A stretch of 64,000 bases of DNA from Dongia rigui. GTDB taxonomy: Bacteria > Pseudomonadota > Alphaproteobacteria > Dongiales > Dongiaceae. Position 1 is the first letter of the stretch; every line of letters starts with the position of its first letter. Below are positions 27,721 to 35,008 of the stretch, one piece after another. The stretch lies in NCBI RefSeq assembly GCF_034044635.1, contig NZ_JAXCLX010000003.1:1-64000 (forward strand), written 5' to 3'. A program made the translations under genes and the position numbers. Below the pieces are notes generated by a model. That model made no database searches, was not told the DNA's origin, and saw only the letters and a list, made by a program, of their open reading frames with translations.

Positions 27721-29236
27721 GTTCGGCAATGCCGACGACGCGGAACAGCAACGCAAGTGCCGCAAAGGCCACCGCACCCACGGCAATGATGCCAATGAGG
27801 GAGAGCGCCTGCAATTCGGTCCCCGCCTGTTGCCCCGGCCAGATGACGTAGACGGCACCCCAGGTGGCACCGCCGAGGGCGATGCAGGCGAGGAGAAGAC
27901 GCGGCAAGGTGCGCTTCGAGCGCGCATCGAGGACCAGGAAGCCGCGGCGATAAAGAATGGTGCCAAGGAGGATGGCATTGACCCAGGCCGACACCATGGC
28001 GCCGATGGCGACGCCGATATAGCCGAAGGGCAAGGTGAGCGAGAAGCTGATGGCGATGTTGACGGCAACCGAGATCGCCGCCTGGCGGAACGGTGTCGTC
28101 GTATCCTCGCGCGCCAGGAAGGCAGCGGTGAGCGCCTTGTTGGCGACATAGGCCGGAAGCCCCGCCGACATGATCATGAGGGCGATCGAGACCGCTTCGG
28201 CATCGTCATAGGTGAAGGCGCCGCGATGGTAGACCGTGGTGACGATGGGAAGTGCCGCGACGATGAGGCCCACCATCGAGGGCAGCGACAGGACGAGGCC
28301 CAGTTCCAGGGCGCGGTTCTGCATGTGCATGGCGGCCTGCGGATCGCCGCTACGTAAGGCCCGCGTCAATGCCGGCAGCAGAACGACACCGATCGCCGAG
28401 CCGATGAGCGCCAAGGGCAGCTGATAGAGCCGGTCGGCGTAATAGATGAAGGAGACCGATCCCGCATGCAGCGAGGCGAGGATGGTGGAAACGGCGAGGT
28501 TGATCTGCACCACGCTGGCGCCGAAGAGACCGGGGATCATCAGCTTGAAAAGCTGCACGGCATCGGGTGTGAGGCGCGGTAGCGGCAGTCTTAGCGCGAG
28601 CCCGGCGCGCCTGCAGGCATTGGCGAGCCACAGGAACTGCACGAGGCCGGATAGCGTGACCGACCAGGCCAGCGCTTCGCCGACGAAGAGCGCATCGCCC
28701 TTGATGAACCACATGGTGGCGATGAGGATCGCGTTGAGGATGACCGGTGCCACCGCATTCTCGGCGAATTTGTGGAGGCCGTTGAGCATGCCGCCCTGCA
28801 AGGCACAGAGCGACATGAAGACGATGTAGGGAAAGGTGATGCTGGTGAAGAGCACCGCCGCCTGGAACTTCATCGGGTCGGCATCGAAGCCAGGGGCGAA
28901 GATGTGGATGAGCCAGGGCATGGCAAGCTCCGCCGCCACCAGCACGATGAGCAGCGCCACCAGCAGCAGCGCCATCACCTGTTCGGCAAAGATGCGGGCG
29001 CCGGACATGCCGCGCTCGGTGAGATGCCGGGTGAAGACCGGGACGAAGGCCGCCGAGAAGGCCCCTTCCGCAAAGACCTGGCGCAACAGATTGGGCAGGC
29101 GCATGGCGACGATAAAGGCATCGGCGATGGGGCCGGTGCCAAAGAGCTGGGCGATCATCACCTCGCGCACGAAGCCCAAGATTCGGCTCAACAGGGTCAT
29201 GCCGCCAACGGTGGCGAAGGAGCGCAAGGAAAACAT
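27695..29236 (-). CDS. murJ: Lipid II flippase MurJ
   Basis: A 513-residue polytopic membrane protein of the MOP superfamily with about 14 helices. It moves lipid II across the inner membrane for peptidoglycan synthesis. Family landmarks are GGMTLLSRILGFVREVMIA, GPIADAFIVAMRLPNLLRQ, FAEGAFSAAFVPVF and YRGAF-like VYHRGAFTYDDAEAV. The C-terminus ends in LRNLRRRR within the 28-bp repeat. It is monocistronic or co-transcribed with glpR 128 bases downstream. Confidence 0.96.
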   Translation of the reverse strand: MFSLRSFATVGGMTLLSRILGFVREVMIAQLFGTGPIADAFIVAMRLPNLLRQVFAEGAFSAAFVPVFTRHLTERGMSGARIFAEQVMALLLVALLIVLVAAELAMPWLIHIFAPGFDADPMKFQAAVLFTSITFPYIVFMSLCALQGGMLNGLHKFAENAVAPVILNAILIATMWFIKGDALFVGEALAWSVTLSGLVQFLWLANACRRAGLALRLPLPRLTPDAVQLFKLMIPGLFGASVVQINLAVSTILASLHAGSVSFIYYADRLYQLPLALIGSAIGVVLLPALTRALRSGDPQAAMHMQNRALELGLVLSLPSMVGLIVAALPIVTTVYHRGAFTYDDAEAVSIALMIMSAGLPAYVANKALTAAFLAREDTTTPFRQAAISVAVNIAISFSLTLPFGYIGVAIGAMVSAWVNAILLGTILYRRGFLVLDARSKRTLPRLLLACIALGGATWGAVYVIWPGQQAGTELQALSLIGIIAVGAVAFAALALLFRVVGIAELRNLRRRR

Positions 29237-29337
29237 GGGGGCGCGGGTGCTTTCGGAGAGAGAAGTAGAATCGCCAGATTTATGAGGTGTTTAGCATAAC
29301 AGGCCCGATTTTCATCCTGTCGGCCAAACGCGGCAGC

Positions 29338-29401
29338 CTTAAGAAAAACTTGTGGCCTTTTCAAGCGAAGCTCGTTTGTCTACTATGTCGATAGAGATTT
29401 A
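29338..29401 (+). promoter_or_regulatory. Sulfur-regulon type promoter element, copy upstream of the sulfate-binding gene
   Basis: This 64-base segment aligns without gaps, at about 50 of 64 positions, to the segment upstream of the TauD-like gene. Blocks kept in both are AAGAAAAACTTG, GTTTGTCTACTA and TAGAGATTTA, with a dyad CTACT-N5-RRTAG inside. It lies 75 bases before the start codon. Shared control of two sulfur-scavenging operons is the simplest reading. Confidence 0.65.
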
Positions 29402-29476
29402 GTATTTCCGGCAACCAGACACCCGTCTGGGGGACAGAAACCAGCGCGGGCCAAGTCGCGCTTCAGGAGGCTCAAG

Positions 29477-30499
29477 ATGTTGATTTCGAGACGTTCTTTG
29501 TCGGTCGCCGCGGTGCTGGCGACACTCCTTGCCAGTGCCCTGCCGGGCCTGGCCCAGGCGGAAACCAAGCTGCTCAACGTGTCCTATGACCCGACGCGCG
29601 AGCTTTATAAGGAATTCAACACGGCCTTCGCCGCGCATTGGAAGAAGGAGACGGGCGAAGACCTCTCCATCGAAGCCTCGCATGGCGGGTCGGGCAAGCA
29701 GGCCCGCGCCGTGATCGACGGGCTCGAAGCCGATGTCGTCACCCTGGCGCTTGCCTACGACATCGACGAGATCGCCGCCAAGGCCAAGCTCCTCCCCGCC
29801 GATTGGCAGGCCCGCCTGCCGCACAACTCGTCGCCCTATACCTCGACCATCGTGTTCCTGGTGCGTAAGGGCAACCCCAAGGGCATCAAGGATTGGGGCG
29901 ATCTGACCAAGGAAGGCGTCGAGGTGATCACGCCCAATCCGAAGACCTCGGGCGGTGCGCGCTGGAATTATCTGGCGGCCTGGGGCTGGGCGCTGAAGCA
30001 GCCGGGCGGTTCGGCCGATACGGCCAAGGCCTTCGTCAAGGATCTCTATAAGCATGTGCCGGTGCTCGACAGCGGCGCCCGCGGCTCCACCACCACCTTC
30101 GTCCAGCGCGGCATCGGCGACGTGTTGCTGGCCTGGGAGAACGAAGCGTTCCTGGCGGTGAAGGAACTGGGCCCGGATCAGTTCGACATCGTCGTCCCCA
30201 GCGTCAGCATCCTCGCCGAGCCGCCGGTCGCGGTGGTCGACACGGTCGTCGACAAGCACGGCACGCGCAAAGTGGCGGAAGCCTATCTCAACTATCTCTA
30301 CACGCCGGAAGGCCAGGAGATCGCTGCGAAGAACTTCTATCGCCCGACCGACCCCAAGGTGGCCGCCGCGCATGAGAAGGACTTCCCCAAGGTCAACCTC
30401 ATCACCATCGACGACACGTTCGGTGGCTGGAAGAAGGCGCAGCCGGAGCATTTCGGCGACGGCGGGACCTTCGACCAGATCTATCAGCCGACCAATTGA
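29477..30499 (+). CDS. sbp: Periplasmic sulfate-binding protein
   Basis: A 340-residue sulfate/thiosulfate-binding protein (Sbp/CysP family) with a signal peptide cleaved near GLAQAETK. Diagnostic stretches are [53 protein letters not shown] and [13 protein letters not shown]. It supplies sulfate to a CysTWA transporter, whose other genes are not in this window. AGGAGG sits just ahead of the ATG. Its promoter matches that of the dioxygenase operon, so both are probably induced by sulfur limitation. Confidence 0.95.
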
Positions 30500-30524
30500 T
30501 CATCGGCTGAAATAGACGACATGG

Positions 30525-30555
30525 AAACGGGGCCAGAAATGGCCCCGTTTTTGTT
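30525..30555 (+). terminator. Intrinsic terminator after the sulfate-binding gene
   Basis: The stem AAACGGGGCCA/TGGCCCCGTTT around GAAA is followed by TTGTTT, 26 bases after the stop. It is a clear Rho-independent terminator, indicating a single-gene transcript. Confidence 0.85.
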
Positions 30556-30576
30556 TGTCTAACTGCGATCTCAATC

Positions 30577-30666
30577 CGTCATGGTCGGCGCAGGCCGACC
30601 ATCCATGAGTTTCTTTCTTCGGCGATAGGCAAAGTCGTGGATGGTCGGCCTTCGCCGACCATGACG
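30577..30666. repeat. Double-hairpin intergenic repeat, family C, copy 1
   Basis: A 90-bp element bounded by CGTCATGG and CCATGACG. It carries two small hairpins: GGTCGGC/GCCGACC with loop GCAG, and GGTCGGC/GCCGACC with loop CTTC. The second copy near 46.7 kb has exactly the same length. Both lie between convergent genes. Confidence 0.8.
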
Positions 30667-30684
30667 AGAGGGTTCGGGCAGCCG

Positions 30685-32067
30685 CTACAGCAGACGCTCC
30701 GCCAGTGCCGCGCAGGCGATGCGGAGATCGGGGACGGCGATGATCTCCCAGAAGGTGCCTTTGGTGATGGGGCCGATGGCGTGGAGATCGGGGGTTACAT
30801 GGCCTTGCCTGTCGATCACATTGCCGGCTGGATCGACGTCGAGCCCGAGGCGCAAGGGATCGGGCCGGACCTGGCCGGATGCCAGCAGCTGCTGGATGAG
30901 CTTCTGGTCGAGCCTGGTGGCATCGGAGCGCGGGCCGGAGCAGTCGATGACGCGGTCTACGACCAGCTCGCGCCGACCGCTGTCGCCGCGCAGGTTGACG
31001 TGAACCACGCTCGTTTCGTCGAGGCGCGTGGTCTCACCGATGCGGCCCTTGATGATCTCGATCTGGCCAGCGGCGATGGCTGCTTCGATCCGCGCCATGA
31101 CCTGGGGGGCGGCACGGTGGCGATGCACGTCCCACCAGGGGCGTAAGTGACGCAGGAAACGCGCGCGCTCGGGGAGCGACATTTCCTGCCACAGGCGCTG
31201 CGTATGCGGCCGCAATCCGTCGATCGCGGCACGCCTCCCGGCCCCGGTCTTCTCGGCAATGCGCGCAATGGTCCGAACCTGCCGCAGCAGTTTGACGAGA
31301 TTGCGGCCCGAGGGCGGCGCTTCGTATTTCCAGGGCGCGGGGACGGCGGCATGGACGCGCGGCAGCAGGCCACGGCGCGAAAGCGCATAGATCTTGCCCG
31401 TGTGGCCGCGGTCGAGCAGCGACAGGACCGTGTCGATGAAGGTGAGCCCGGTGCCCAGAATCAGGACCGGGGCATCGGGGGCGAGCCCGTCGAGACAGGC
31501 CGGATTCCAAGGGTCGCCGAAATAGCCGGGCGTCGAAGCCGTGGGCGGGAAATTGCCGACCGCAAGGACCGCATGGTCGATGGGGTAACGCCGCCCGACG
31601 GCGAGTTCCAGCGAGAGGCCGTCACTGTCACGGTGCAGCGCCACCGCTTCGTCGGTGAGGAGGAAGAGGTTATGGCTCTGCCCCTCGCGCCAGATCTTGT
31701 CGCCCAGCAGTTCCTGAATGTAATTCCCGTAGACCCGGCGCGGCACGAAGGTCGATGCGCCCAAGTTCGCCACATTGGGGTCGCCGATCTCGGCCCTTTG
31801 GTCGGCCGGCAGATTCTGCAGCCAGCGGACGAAATGATCGGGCTCGTCCGGGAAAGCACTCATATTGCCGGCGCGGACGTTCAGCAGATGGTTGGGATTG
31901 CCGGTCGCATAGGCGAGGCCGCGACCGAAATTCTGGTTGCGCTCGACAAGGTAAATGCGGTCCTCGGGCCGACATCGCCGCAACAGGTGGAGGGCCAGCA
32001 AAGAACCGCTGAACCCGGCACCGATGATGGCGATGCGGCGACCGCTCTGGTCACCGATGGCGGTCAT
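30685..32067 (-). CDS. FAD/NAD(P)-binding oxidoreductase (NAD_binding_9 type)
   Basis: A 460-residue flavoprotein with an N-terminal dinucleotide fold (IAIIGAGFSGSLLALHLLRR) and the segment RGLAYATGNPNHLLNVRAGN typical of the YdhS/HpyO-like group. A second nucleotide site is near VLILGTGLTFID. It lacks a recognisable substrate domain, so the reaction is unknown. It starts 25 bases after the TauD-like gene on the same strand, in an operon driven by the sulfur-type promoter. A role in processing organosulfur compounds, perhaps as a reductase partner, is inference. Confidence 0.82.
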   Translation of the reverse strand: MTAIGDQSGRRIAIIGAGFSGSLLALHLLRRCRPEDRIYLVERNQNFGRGLAYATGNPNHLLNVRAGNMSAFPDEPDHFVRWLQNLPADQRAEIGDPNVANLGASTFVPRRVYGNYIQELLGDKIWREGQSHNLFLLTDEAVALHRDSDGLSLELAVGRRYPIDHAVLAVGNFPPTASTPGYFGDPWNPACLDGLAPDAPVLILGTGLTFIDTVLSLLDRGHTGKIYALSRRGLLPRVHAAVPAPWKYEAPPSGRNLVKLLRQVRTIARIAEKTGAGRRAAIDGLRPHTQRLWQEMSLPERARFLRHLRPWWDVHRHRAAPQVMARIEAAIAAGQIEIIKGRIGETTRLDETSVVHVNLRGDSGRRELVVDRVIDCSGPRSDATRLDQKLIQQLLASGQVRPDPLRLGLDVDPAGNVIDRQGHVTPDLHAIGPITKGTFWEIIAVPDLRIACAALAERLL

Positions 32068-32092
32068 GATGGGATCAGAATGGCATGACGGA

Positions 32093-32947
32093 TCAGAACG
32101 GCCGATCGCCAAGGATGGTGGCGCGGTGCATCACGCGCCGGTGCGGCAGATAATCGGCCACCGCGTAATGCTGCGTCGAGCGGTTGTCCCACATCGCGAC
32201 GTCATTGGTCTTCCAGCGATGGCGCACCTGGAAATCGGGCTTGCCGATATGCTTGAAGAGCAGATCAAGCACAGCGCGGCTTTCGCTGGCCGAGAGTTCG
32301 TTGATATGGGTGGTGAAGCCCTCGTTGACGAATAGGCCCTTGGCGCCGCTCACGGGATGGGTGCGGATGACGGGGTGCTTCACCGGCCGGTTCTTGGCCT
32401 TGGCCGCCAGCCATTGCTTCTCCTCGGCTGGCGTGCGCGCATAGCGCTCGGCCGGGAAGGATTTGGCAAAATCATGGGTCGCGGTCAGGCGCTCGAGAAA
32501 GGCGCGGAAAGCCGGCGACAGCGCGTTGAAGGCCGCCTCGTTATTGACCCAGAGCGTATCACCACCGCTCGGCGGCAATTCCTTGGCATAGAGCACGGCG
32601 CCCAAGGGTGGCGTCTCGATGAAGGTCACGTCCGTGTGCCAATTGTCGTTGTCGGGCAGGTTCTGCGTGCTGGTATCGATGATGATGATTTCCGGCGTGT
32701 CGGCGACCTGCGGATAGATGGGATGGATATGCAGCTTGCCGAAGGCTGCGGCGAAATTGCGCTGCTGCTGCGGCGTGATGATCTGGTTTTCGAAGAACAG
32801 GACCTTGTGGGCGATGAGGGCGTCGCCAAGCTTGGCACGGCTCGCCGCATCGATCGTCCGGGCGAGATCGATGCCCTCGACGCGCGCGCCGATGACGGGA
32901 CCGAGGGGTTCGACCTTGATCAGGTCGGCGACGATGCGGTTGCTCAT
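32093..32947 (-). CDS. TauD/AtsK-type Fe(II)/2-oxoglutarate dioxygenase
   Basis: A 284-residue dioxygenase. The iron ligands are H and D of NWHTDVTF and the late His of DNRSTQHYAV. The 2-oxoglutarate-binding Arg is in MHRATI. Family stretches include RVEGIDLAR, VLFFENQIITPQQQ and PPSGGDTLWVNNEAAF. Relatives cleave taurine or alkyl sulfates to release sulfite or sulfate, and which of these applies is not clear. GAGAGGTGG precedes the ATG. Its promoter closely matches that of the sulfate-binding gene, supporting a sulfur-scavenging role. Confidence 0.92.
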   Translation of the reverse strand: MSNRIVADLIKVEPLGPVIGARVEGIDLARTIDAASRAKLGDALIAHKVLFFENQIITPQQQRNFAAAFGKLHIHPIYPQVADTPEIIIIDTSTQNLPDNDNWHTDVTFIETPPLGAVLYAKELPPSGGDTLWVNNEAAFNALSPAFRAFLERLTATHDFAKSFPAERYARTPAEEKQWLAAKAKNRPVKHPVIRTHPVSGAKGLFVNEGFTTHINELSASESRAVLDLLFKHIGKPDFQVRHRWKTNDVAMWDNRSTQHYAVADYLPHRRVMHRATILGDRPF

Positions 32948-33022
32948 GAAACCACCTCTCCGTTCTTTTCAATTCCGGTCCAGCGGGGCAGACTTTCGCG
33001 GCCCTCTGTTGGGACAGGACAA

Positions 33023-33086
33023 TAAATCTCTACTGATTTAGTAGACAAACAAGCCTTTCTTGCCAGGGGCGCAAGTTTTTCTCAAG
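33023..33086 (-). promoter_or_regulatory. Sulfur-regulon type promoter element, copy upstream of the TauD-like gene
   Basis: This is the minus-strand partner of the element near 29.4 kb. Here the inner dyad is perfect: CTACT-AAATC-AGTAG. Its proximal edge lies 75 bases upstream of the dioxygenase start, the same distance as in the other copy. Such 5-5-5 dyads fit a dimeric regulator, for example an Rrf2- or LysR-type protein, but the regulator is unknown. Confidence 0.65.
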
Positions 33087-33114
33087 AGCTTGCCGTAAAA
33101 ATAAGGAATTTCAA

Positions 33115-33510
33115 ATGGTTGCGAATAAGACGGGCGATGCCACCCTGGCCCTTGTGGCGCATGACCAGATGAAATCCCGTATGCGCGATTGGGCCGTGGC
33201 GCATGAAAGGCTGCTGGCGCGCTATCGCCTCTTTGCGACCGGCACGACCGGCGGGATCATCGGCGCCGCCTGCCCCAGCCTGAAGATCAAGCGATTGAAA
33301 AGCGGCCCGCTGGGCGGCGACCAGCAGATCGGGGCACTCATTGCCGAGAAAAAGGTCGCGGCGTTGATCTTCTTCATCGATCCGATGACCGCCCTGCCCC
33401 ATGACGTCGATGTCAAAGCGCTCATCCGCCTCAGCATCCTTTACGACATCCCCTTTGCCTGCAACGAGGCGACGGCGAGCCTCCTCATCACCGGCATGGC
33501 GAAAAAATAG
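33115..33510 (+). CDS. mgsA: Methylglyoxal synthase
   Basis: A 131-residue enzyme that turns dihydroxyacetone phosphate into methylglyoxal and phosphate. Family residues are present: LVAHDQMK, the phosphate-binding [22 protein letters not shown] with the catalytic Asp, and [15 protein letters not shown]. Length is standard. AAGGA precedes the ATG. It offers a bypass when the glycerol pathway encoded 6 kb away floods the cell with triose phosphate. It is a single gene facing the copper oxidase. Confidence 0.95.
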
Positions 33511-33541
33511 GCGGACCCGCCGCAACGGGGCCGCCCATCCT

Positions 33542-35008
33542 TCAGGCATAGACGACTTCCGTCATCATGCCGGTCGCCATGTGCAGGAGGTTGTGGCAGT
33601 GGAACGGCCAGCGGCCAGCGTTGTCGGCATCGAAGGCGATGCTGACCTTGCCGCCGATGGGGACCAGCACCGTGTCGCGCATGGCGCCCGAAAAGCTGCG
33701 GCCGTTGATGCCGACCACCTGGAAATGATGGCCGTGGAGATGCATGGGATGCGCCATCATGCTGTCATTGACCATGTCGATAACGACGCGCTCGCCCAGC
33801 CCCACCTCGAACGGATGATGCTGTCCGAAGGTCTCGCCATTGATCGACCACACGTAAGGTGACATGCCGCCGGTGAGCGTTGCGCGCAAGGTGCGGGCAA
33901 CGGGCTTTGCGGCCAAGGGTGTGACGGCGGCCAGTCGGGTTTCGAAATCGACCGTGACGGCGTCGGCCGGTGTTGTGCCCTGCTCCGCCACTTTGGCCAC
34001 CGTGGCACCCGGCGTTGCCAAGATGACGCCGGTGCGCTCTCTGCCCCCTTCCCGCACGGCAAGGATCGGGAAGGCGCCGCCGGATTCGGGGAGATCGACG
34101 AGAATGTCGAGGCGCTGGCCCATCGCCATGGGGAAGCGCCGGGCGCTGACCGGTTGGACGGCATTGCCATCGACCGCGATGACGCTGCCGGTCAATGAAC
34201 CGAGATCGATATGAAAGGCCGTGGATGTTGCGCCATTGATCAGCCGCAACCGCACGCGGCCCTTGCGCTCGGTGCGGATGACGAGCGGATCGGCAAGCGT
34301 GCGGTCATTGGCGAGATAAGCATCGTAGTCGACGTCGTTGAGGTCCATCGCCATGGCGCCACCACTCATGGCGCCCATATCCATGCCGCTCATATCCATA
34401 TTGCCCATGTCCATATTGCTCATGTCCATGTTGCCCATATTGGACATGTCGTGACCGGCATGGGACATGGCGCTGGCGCCAAGCCCCGCCAGAAGTTCGG
34501 CGGGATCCTTGAAGGTAAAATCGTGCAGCAACACGACGACCTCCTGCATGTCGGCCTTGAGATCGTCGGCCGAATGCACGATGAGGGGTGCCGCCATCAG
34601 ACGCTGTTCCTGCAAGCCGTGATGGGAATGCATCCAGTGGGTGCCGGTGCGCGGGGCGAAATCATAGCTGGCTGTTTTCCCCACTGCGATCAGCGGCCGG
34701 TCCTGGTCGGCAACACCGTCCTGCAGATAAGGCGGGGTCATGCCGTGCCAATGAATGACGGCATCCTCGCCCGCCTCATTGGCGAGGTCGACCCGGAAGC
34801 GCTGGCCGGGGTCGAGGGTGAGCCCGGCGGTGCCGTCGGGTTGCTGGATGCCAAAGACGCTGGCGGCTTTGCCGTTGACCACCAGTGTGCGGCGGGTGAT
34901 CGCCAGTTTGAAAGGTTCCGCCGACAAGGCGAAACGCGGCAGTGTGCCGCATGCGGCCAATGCTGTACCGCCCGCCATCAAGGCGCGGCGTGAGAAAAGC
35001 GTGGACAT
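33542..35008 (-). CDS. Periplasmic multicopper oxidase (CopA/CueO-like)
   Basis: A 488-residue oxidase with a Tat signal (SRRALMAGGTALAACG). The copper ligands are intact: IHWHGM, WMHSHHG, HPMHLHGH and FHCHNLLHMATGM, giving type 1, 2 and 3 centres. A Met-rich stretch near residues 185-215 repeats NMDMSNMDMGNMDMSGMD, typical of CopA/CueO copper-tolerance enzymes, where it binds Cu(I) before oxidation. Its partner gene upstream encodes a small His/Cys-rich secreted protein, so a copper detoxification pair is likely. Confidence 0.93.
   Translation of the reverse strand: MSTLFSRRALMAGGTALAACGTLPRFALSAEPFKLAITRRTLVVNGKAASVFGIQQPDGTAGLTLDPGQRFRVDLANEAGEDAVIHWHGMTPPYLQDGVADQDRPLIAVGKTASYDFAPRTGTHWMHSHHGLQEQRLMAAPLIVHSADDLKADMQEVVVLLHDFTFKDPAELLAGLGASAMSHAGHDMSNMGNMDMSNMDMGNMDMSGMDMGAMSGGAMAMDLNDVDYDAYLANDRTLADPLVIRTERKGRVRLRLINGATSTAFHIDLGSLTGSVIAVDGNAVQPVSARRFPMAMGQRLDILVDLPESGGAFPILAVREGGRERTGVILATPGATVAKVAEQGTTPADAVTVDFETRLAAVTPLAAKPVARTLRATLTGGMSPYVWSINGETFGQHHPFEVGLGERVVIDMVNDSMMAHPMHLHGHHFQVVGINGRSFSGAMRDTVLVPIGGKVSIAFDADNAGRWPFHCHNLLHMATGMMTEVVYA

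Follow-up and report, generated by a model that had tools for sequence, protein, structure and literature searches.

A duplicated promoter element before sbp and tauD of Dongia rigui probably joins LysR-type boxes to a candidate Rrf2 operator

Introduction

Sulfur uptake in Bacillus and Staphylococcus is repressed by the Rrf2-family protein CymR, for which a complex with CysK serves as the sensor. Sulfonate-sulfur genes of gamma- and betaproteobacteria are activated by the LysR-type proteins CysB, Cbl and SsuR, with CysB acting over Cbl. The Rrf2 regulators IscR, RirA and NsrR sense iron-sulfur (Fe-S) clusters or nitric oxide, carry cysteines in the C-terminal part of the protein and have dyad operators over promoters. 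For alphaproteobacteria, neither an Rrf2 sulfur regulon nor a sulfur master regulator turned up in the titles and abstract beginnings of the best-ranked literature matches, a body of literature with subscription journals mostly outside it. Here a 64-bp element is described that occurs twice in a 64,000-nucleotide stretch of Dongia rigui (contig NZ_JAXCLX010000003.1; G000:C3:1-64000 of the 4.66-Mb genome G000, referred to as the window), once before a gene for a sulfate-binding protein (sbp) and once before a taurine dioxygenase gene (tauD).

As judged from sequence, the element is likely to be a two-module operator-promoter of a sulfur-limitation regulon, with an Rrf2 repressor on its core and a LysR-type regulator (LTTR) as activator on the boxes upstream of the core. 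A first-pass annotation of the window had proposed a sulfur-limitation regulon from the repeat; the division into two modules, a candidate regulator for each of them and a wider gene set are added here. The repeat is thereby extended to a proposed regulon with two named candidate regulators and a predicted role for a conserved FAD/NAD-binding protein.

Results

Two copies of a 64-bp element

The copy 5′ of sbp lies at 29338-29401 on the plus strand and the copy 5′ of tauD at 33023-33086 on the minus strand. Alignment without gaps gave 50 identities in 64 positions, and elsewhere in the window, both strands included, the closest 64-mer to either one agreed at 34 of 64. Background 64-mer identity had a mean of ∼15 (standard deviation 3.3), with a maximum of 32 in 20,000 composition shuffles. 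Each copy is separated from its start codon by exactly 75 bases (29402-29476 and 32948-33022, respectively). An inverted repeat is perfect in the tauD copy (CTACT-N5-AGTAG) and reads CTACT-N5-GATAG in the sbp copy. The first-pass annotation had noted a likeness far above that of unrelated intergenic DNA, a spacing of about 75 bases and a dyad in each copy that is perfect in the second, and all three were borne out by these measurements. A profile of the seven close sbp and tauD copies (R1) scored the sbp copy at 69.2 bits and the tauD copy at 73.7 bits, and the sbp copy is kept in three further genomes (G003, G005 and G007). A profile of 24 cores (R3) matched the two elements and nowhere else in the window.

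Both leaders are ∼75 nucleotides long, as an RNA leader element of the riboswitch type controlling both genes might be. The similarity of the two copies ends where such a leader would start, and no Rfam family was found at or over its cut-off in 29200-33600. An RNA leader was rejected on these grounds and is hardly credible.

Boxes and core dyad

The 64 bp probably comprise two separable sites, with LysR-type boxes on the upstream side and the promoter covered by a dyad, TCTA-N9-TAGAGATT; the two sites are probably bound by different proteins. In the sbp copy the putative box 1 (AAG-N5-CTT) lies at 29341-29351 and box 2 (CAAG-N5-CTCG) at 29362-29374, 22 bp after box 1. The core dyad TTTGTCTA-N9-TAGAGATT, a proposed Rrf2 operator, follows at 29375-29399 on the plus strand (R3 match 29374-29401); it starts at a -35-like TTGTCT (29376-29381) and runs toward the -10 region. 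On the minus strand the tauD copy holds box 1 (GAG-N5-CTT) at 33073-33083, a perfect box 2 (CAAG-N5-CTTG) at 33050-33062 and a perfect core dyad, CTACTAAATCAGTAG, at 33025-33049, matched by R3 at 33023-33050 and also on the other strand.

With TTGTCT as -35 the box centres fall near -65 and -43, the -35 and -10 being assigned by eye. This region is the usual place of a LysR-type activator, whose promoters carry two boxes near -65 and -40, spaced by about two turns of the helix. The dyad TCTA-N9-TAGA spans the region that RNA polymerase has to enter. Of 15 composite elements, 13 have a RAG-N5-CTY word that starts 37-38 bases 5′ of TCTA (the place of box 1) and 10 have one starting 16 bases 5′ of it (the place of box 2). 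In the tauD promoter of G013, which lies outside all models, AAG-N5-CTT occurs at the composite spacing, exactly 16 bases ahead of TCTA.

Three blocks are kept in the seven Dongia copies, namely TNAGNAAAACT, a second AG-N5 word that leads into GTTTGTCTA, and TAGAGATTTA. High similarity inside one 4-kb locus could also come from a recent duplication of a single segment, which would then have meaning as a promoter only. Among these copies the leaders and the inter-box linker vary, and the boxes and core stay. In the other Dongia genomes the sbp copy and the tauD copy are each recognizable by a signature of their own and are therefore not a fresh duplication. With conservation running per gene across genomes and further sites found by R1, this explanation was rejected as very improbable.

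Occurrence of the composite element

The 27-letter pattern TTTGTCTACTA-N6-TAGAGATTTA was found exactly in three stretches of an 84,980-species collection, from which records very near the genome of the window may be left out; two are labelled Dongia and one ‘Proteobacteria bacterium’. Among 17 genomes of the family, a 24-letter core pattern with up to two mismatches was confined to four of the same genus. Both sbp and tauD are preceded by it in G000, G003 and G005, and sbp alone in G007, whose tauD copy has diverged further and was detected by profile. In profile searches of a single genome or of the family, up to 150 of ∼150-590 first-look candidates were scored per genome.

R1 gave 16 matches in the 17 genomes at an expectation value (E) of ≤ 0.5, which were the seven copies of the model and nine others. 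The additional matches lie before tauA (G012, with a tauB-like gene and a tauD gene behind), tauD (G007), sbp (G004, G009 and G011), a LysR gene (G005 and G007) and an rrf2 gene (G011, core part only); the ninth is partial and lies beside another LysR gene (G015). Eight of the nine thus precede sbp, tauD, tauA, the LTTR gene or rrf2; a scan of this kind had been put forward in the first-pass annotation as a check of the regulon. Diverged copies in the family stand before sbp, tauA or the LTTR gene, and G002 and G006 are without the composite element. Among 289 genomes of the class, with 18 first-look candidates per genome and stricter filters, so that weak sites could be lost, strong composite matches were obtained in G000, G005 and G007 only. 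Two weak matches, in G036 (1.7 Mb) and G286 (0.9 Mb), were taken as chance.

A candidate Rrf2 repressor for the core

The Rrf2 gene G000:C2:65738-66181, an ortholog of the gene in G011, is the first gene of rrf2-cysT-cysW-cysA-tauE. Its product passes the superfamily models TIGR00738 (127.4 bits against a cut-off of 73.3) and PF02082. Orthologs were found in 15 of the 17 family genomes and are followed in all 15 by sulfate-uptake genes: cysT-cysW in G000, G003, G004, G005 and G007, cysA-tauE in G002 and G006, and sbp-cysT in G001 and G008-G014. A dyad scoring 11-13 of 13 lies 5-9 bases 5′ of the rrf2 start codon in eight of the 15 (seven Dongia genomes and G012), a score not reached once in 2000 shuffles per promoter. 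TTGAC occurs upstream in all 15 promoters. The same dyad stands on the promoter of rrf2 itself, and binding of the core by an Rrf2 protein is considered likely, with good confidence.

A single LysR-type regulator could instead occupy all 64 bp, with the core as its activator site and promoter and no role for Rrf2. The fixed box-core spacing in most composite copies would suit such an arrangement, as would the 50-60 bp that LysR regulators commonly protect. Against it stand cores that lack a box. In 14 of the 15 rrf2 promoters, a clear dyad being present in eight of the 15, the 90 bases 5′ of the dyad contain no RAG-N5-CTY, and none was found within 90 bases at the LTTR core of G012 or the sbp core of G002; the rrf2 promoter of G006 has a box at a different distance. 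The modules are therefore separate, and a single LysR regulator is unlikely.

The Dongia protein resembles CymR in its family and its proposed sulfur-uptake targets. CymR is its best-scoring named equivalog model (NF047409, 81.6 bits), and the CymR chain 2y75 is third among its PDB matches. Unlike CymR, the protein scores far under the NF047409 cut-off of 195, bears a C-x8-C-x2-C-x5-C motif that is missing from the aligned CymR chain, and seemingly has a LysR activator layered on top. It may work like CymR, yet is not classed as CymR. IscR, RirA and NsrR belong to the same superfamily, but their models all remain under cut-off (80.2 against 207.55, 62 against 193 and 61.9 against 182 bits, respectively), and the neighbours of Dongia rrf2 are sulfate-uptake genes. 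The cysteine spacing also differs from that of IscR. C-x8-C-x2-C-x5-C was found by script in all 15 family orthologs and in 17 of 23 others (32 of 38), and three of the six proteins missed by the script also show it. These cysteines may hold a metal or Fe-S site, and the question is raised of how a four-cysteine Rrf2 protein reads sulfur status.

A close Rrf2 protein (E ≤ 1e-36) is encoded in 25 of the 289 class genomes, four of them Dongia. At the 23 rrf2 loci outside the family, sbp lies within the 1.5-kb downstream flank in eight (L121 with a TauE gene between), and one CysA-like gene, one FAD/NAD-binding protein gene next to rrf2 and one distant tauD in divergent orientation were seen. No such neighbour was found in the examined piece at 12 of the 23. 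The link of rrf2 to sulfate-uptake genes is thus broad, not universal. In three other class genomes (L125, L131 and L138) the gene behind rrf2 resembles an outer-membrane porin by eye, and these genes are possibly sulfate-regulated porins. Core-like stretches were noted by eye at L119, L120 and L130, which are distant rrf2 loci.

A candidate LysR-type activator for the boxes

The LTTR gene lies at G000:C1:59274-60245. Copies of the element are present in the LTTR promoters of G000, G005 and G007; that of G000 carries the whole element in diverged form. This LTTR is the rather probable ligand of the boxes, with less assurance than for Rrf2 on the core. The proteins of G000 and G005 are 88% identical. 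Compared with the LysR proteins of G009 and G011, the G000 LTTR ranked first among six LysR proteins taken from the 47 matches of its own genome (53-54% identity). In G009 and G011 the LysR gene and sbp are transcribed away from each other, as are the LysR gene and tauD in G013, and the element or core lies between them.

Like CysB, Cbl and SsuR, the LTTR is proposed as a LysR activator on tau and sulfate promoters under sulfur starvation and hierarchical control. Unlike them, it passes the GcvA subfamily model (319.1 bits against a cut-off of 288) and has a Rrf2-type dyad on its own promoter; neither CysB nor Cbl was among its best 25 of 55 family models. There is also a likeness to the LysR regulator of choline-sulfate utilization (TIGR03418), for which the LTTR scored 233.8 bits, under the cut-off of 324.8, and one candidate of the regulon lies beside a choline-sulfatase gene.

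A second GcvA-like LysR gene, G000:C1:61002-61898, lies ∼0.76 kb downstream of the LTTR gene. Its product is 58% identical to the G005 LTTR used as query, and a dyad-like stretch was seen upstream by eye.

Dyad profile and wider gene set

A search of the genome with R3, in which scoring covered 150 of the 390 first-look candidates, gave five places at E ≤ 2. Four are in the model, namely sbp, tauD, the LTTR gene and rrf2-cysTWA-tauE, and the fifth (C1:2108765-2108791, E 0.298) is not. Each of the five belongs to a sulfur gene or to one of the two regulators. These genome-wide sites support the sulfur-limitation regulon of the first-pass annotation, and membership of the element in a sulfur regulon is very probable.

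The fifth place stands before a rhodanese-like gene (PF00581, 22.9 bits against a cut-off of 22.2) and a fatty-acid-hydroxylase-family gene, at a locus with a choline-sulfatase gene (TIGR03417, 721 bits) and a LysR gene. A dyad is found at the same place in G002, G003, G005 and G007, giving five Dongia genomes with G000. Over the 17 genomes R3 matched 14 places outside the model, 11 of which are sulfur-linked. These are the five rhodanese-like promoters, the tauD/LTTR gap of G013, the LTTR gene of G012, sbp of G002, the rrf2-sbp gap of G009 and G010, and rrf2 of G005, which is nearly identical to a row of the model. Not counted as sulfur-linked were G005:C6:51457 (before a glutathione S-transferase-like gene) and two places assigned to no gene, G003:C69:1835 and G013:C1:2436811.

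A further profile (R2) gave three strong composite sites in the own genome and then a weak one at E 0.149. This weak site (G000:C1:785359-785411), also the third R1 match in the genome (E 0.82), separates the methionine-uptake gene metQ from a cystine-binding-protein-like gene, and a homocysteine S-methyltransferase-family gene lies farther on; the site is suggestive only as a member of the regulon. Weak R2 matches at C2:504407 and C3:293150 (E 0.317 each) showed no clear sulfur promoter, the first being near a TauE-like gene by eye.

Proposed mechanism

From the sequences, their conservation, their positions and the gene contexts observed, the pairing of proteins with modules, the direction of control and the signal are proposed as follows. 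With ample sulfur, Rrf2 bound at the core would shut sbp, tauD, the LTTR gene and the operon that encodes Rrf2 itself. On a shortage of reduced sulfur, Rrf2 would release and the sulfate transporter and the LTTR would be made. The LTTR would then accumulate and activate the box-bearing promoters, those of sbp and of tauD with the FAD/NAD-binding protein gene (in a relative, tauA with tauD). Rrf2 over the LTTR over the scavenging genes would constitute a feed-forward loop. Repression under ample sulfur is likely to be the direction of control; it is read from the sequence, where the dyads over the Dongia promoters fit a CymR-type operator position.

Several results weigh against this scheme. 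The rrf2 dyad is not above chance in seven of the 15 promoters (G001, G008-G011, G013 and G014; best dyad score 7-9 of 13, shuffle fraction 0.06-0.64), and the pairing of dyad and Rrf2 is firm only in Dongia and G012. R3 missed the held-out rrf2 promoters of G001, G008, G010, G013 and G014, and near the 23 more distant rrf2 loci gave nothing at E ≤ 1. Eleven of the 14 held-out R3 places were found at E 0.19-1.5 only. The rhodanese-like promoters are mixed, with box words 18, not 16, bases before TCTA in three of five (G000, G003 and G005). A second box word lies at 40 in G003 (22 apart, like the composites) and at 29 in G000, and no RAG-N5-CTY box was found in the promoters of G002 and G007. 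A promoter scan found no strong sigma-70 match, so that the -35 and -10 were set by eye; the missing site would fit dependence on an activator, without being proof of it.

The weak dyads in seven rrf2 promoters would also suit another sulfur regulator on the core, with the placement at rrf2 reflecting control of the sulfate operon and not autoregulation. The genome has 47 LysR matches and five Rrf2 genes over cut-off, and Rrf2 is a candidate ligand of the dyad. However, the eight clear dyads sit 5-9 bases before rrf2 whichever gene follows it (cysT, cysA or sbp), and another regulator is considered improbable.

Beyond Dongiaceae, it is a tentative suggestion, held at well under even confidence, that an unnamed Rrf2 repressor with C-x8-C-x2-C-x5-C, heading a sulfate-transport operon, governs sulfur assimilation in several alphaproteobacterial families, maybe sensing sulfur by a metal site or by an Fe-S site assembled with sulfur from cysteine. 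In Dongiaceae it would be wired over a GcvA-like LysR activator, the two making up a feed-forward cascade that replaces CysB/Cbl.

Genes at the locus

The gene at 29477-30499 on the plus strand encodes Sbp, the substrate-binding protein of a sulfate ATP-binding cassette (ABC) transporter, and is the sole match in the genome at E ≤ 0.001. Its product exceeds the cut-offs of TIGR00971 and NF008022 (522.8 bits against 288). It also passes the CysP model NF008106 (360.9 against 308), so thiosulfate may also be a substrate. TauD is encoded at 32093-32947 on the minus strand (NF007104, 440.1 bits against a cut-off of 313). The identities given in the first-pass annotation, a sulfate-binding protein and a TauD-like dioxygenase, were thereby confirmed. 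Its description of the genes as divergent-facing was not: sbp is on the plus strand and tauD with the gene behind it on the minus strand, which makes them convergent.

The FAD/NAD(P)-binding protein gene (PF13454 NAD_binding_9; 30685-32112, minus strand) lies behind tauD and is probably the second gene of the tauD transcript; its true start may be an internal ATG near 32067. The gene is found behind tauD in five genomes (G000, G003, G005, G007 and G013), behind sbp in G004 and G009, and directly behind rrf2 in G189 (locus L134), a genome of another family, with 46% identity. The last of these is an independent link of the FAD/NAD-binding protein to the Rrf2 regulator. It was absent from the examined pieces of G002, G011 and G012. 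Its adjacency to tauD, sbp or rrf2 across genomes supports the membership in the regulon that had been assigned to it earlier.

The sbp gene of G003 (L016 3252-4267) was recovered as two tblastn pieces in different frames, which may reflect a frameshift or an assembly error. A methylglyoxal synthase gene (33115-33510, plus strand) starts 28 bases past the upstream end of the tauD element, divergent from tauD, and its promoter may overlap the element.

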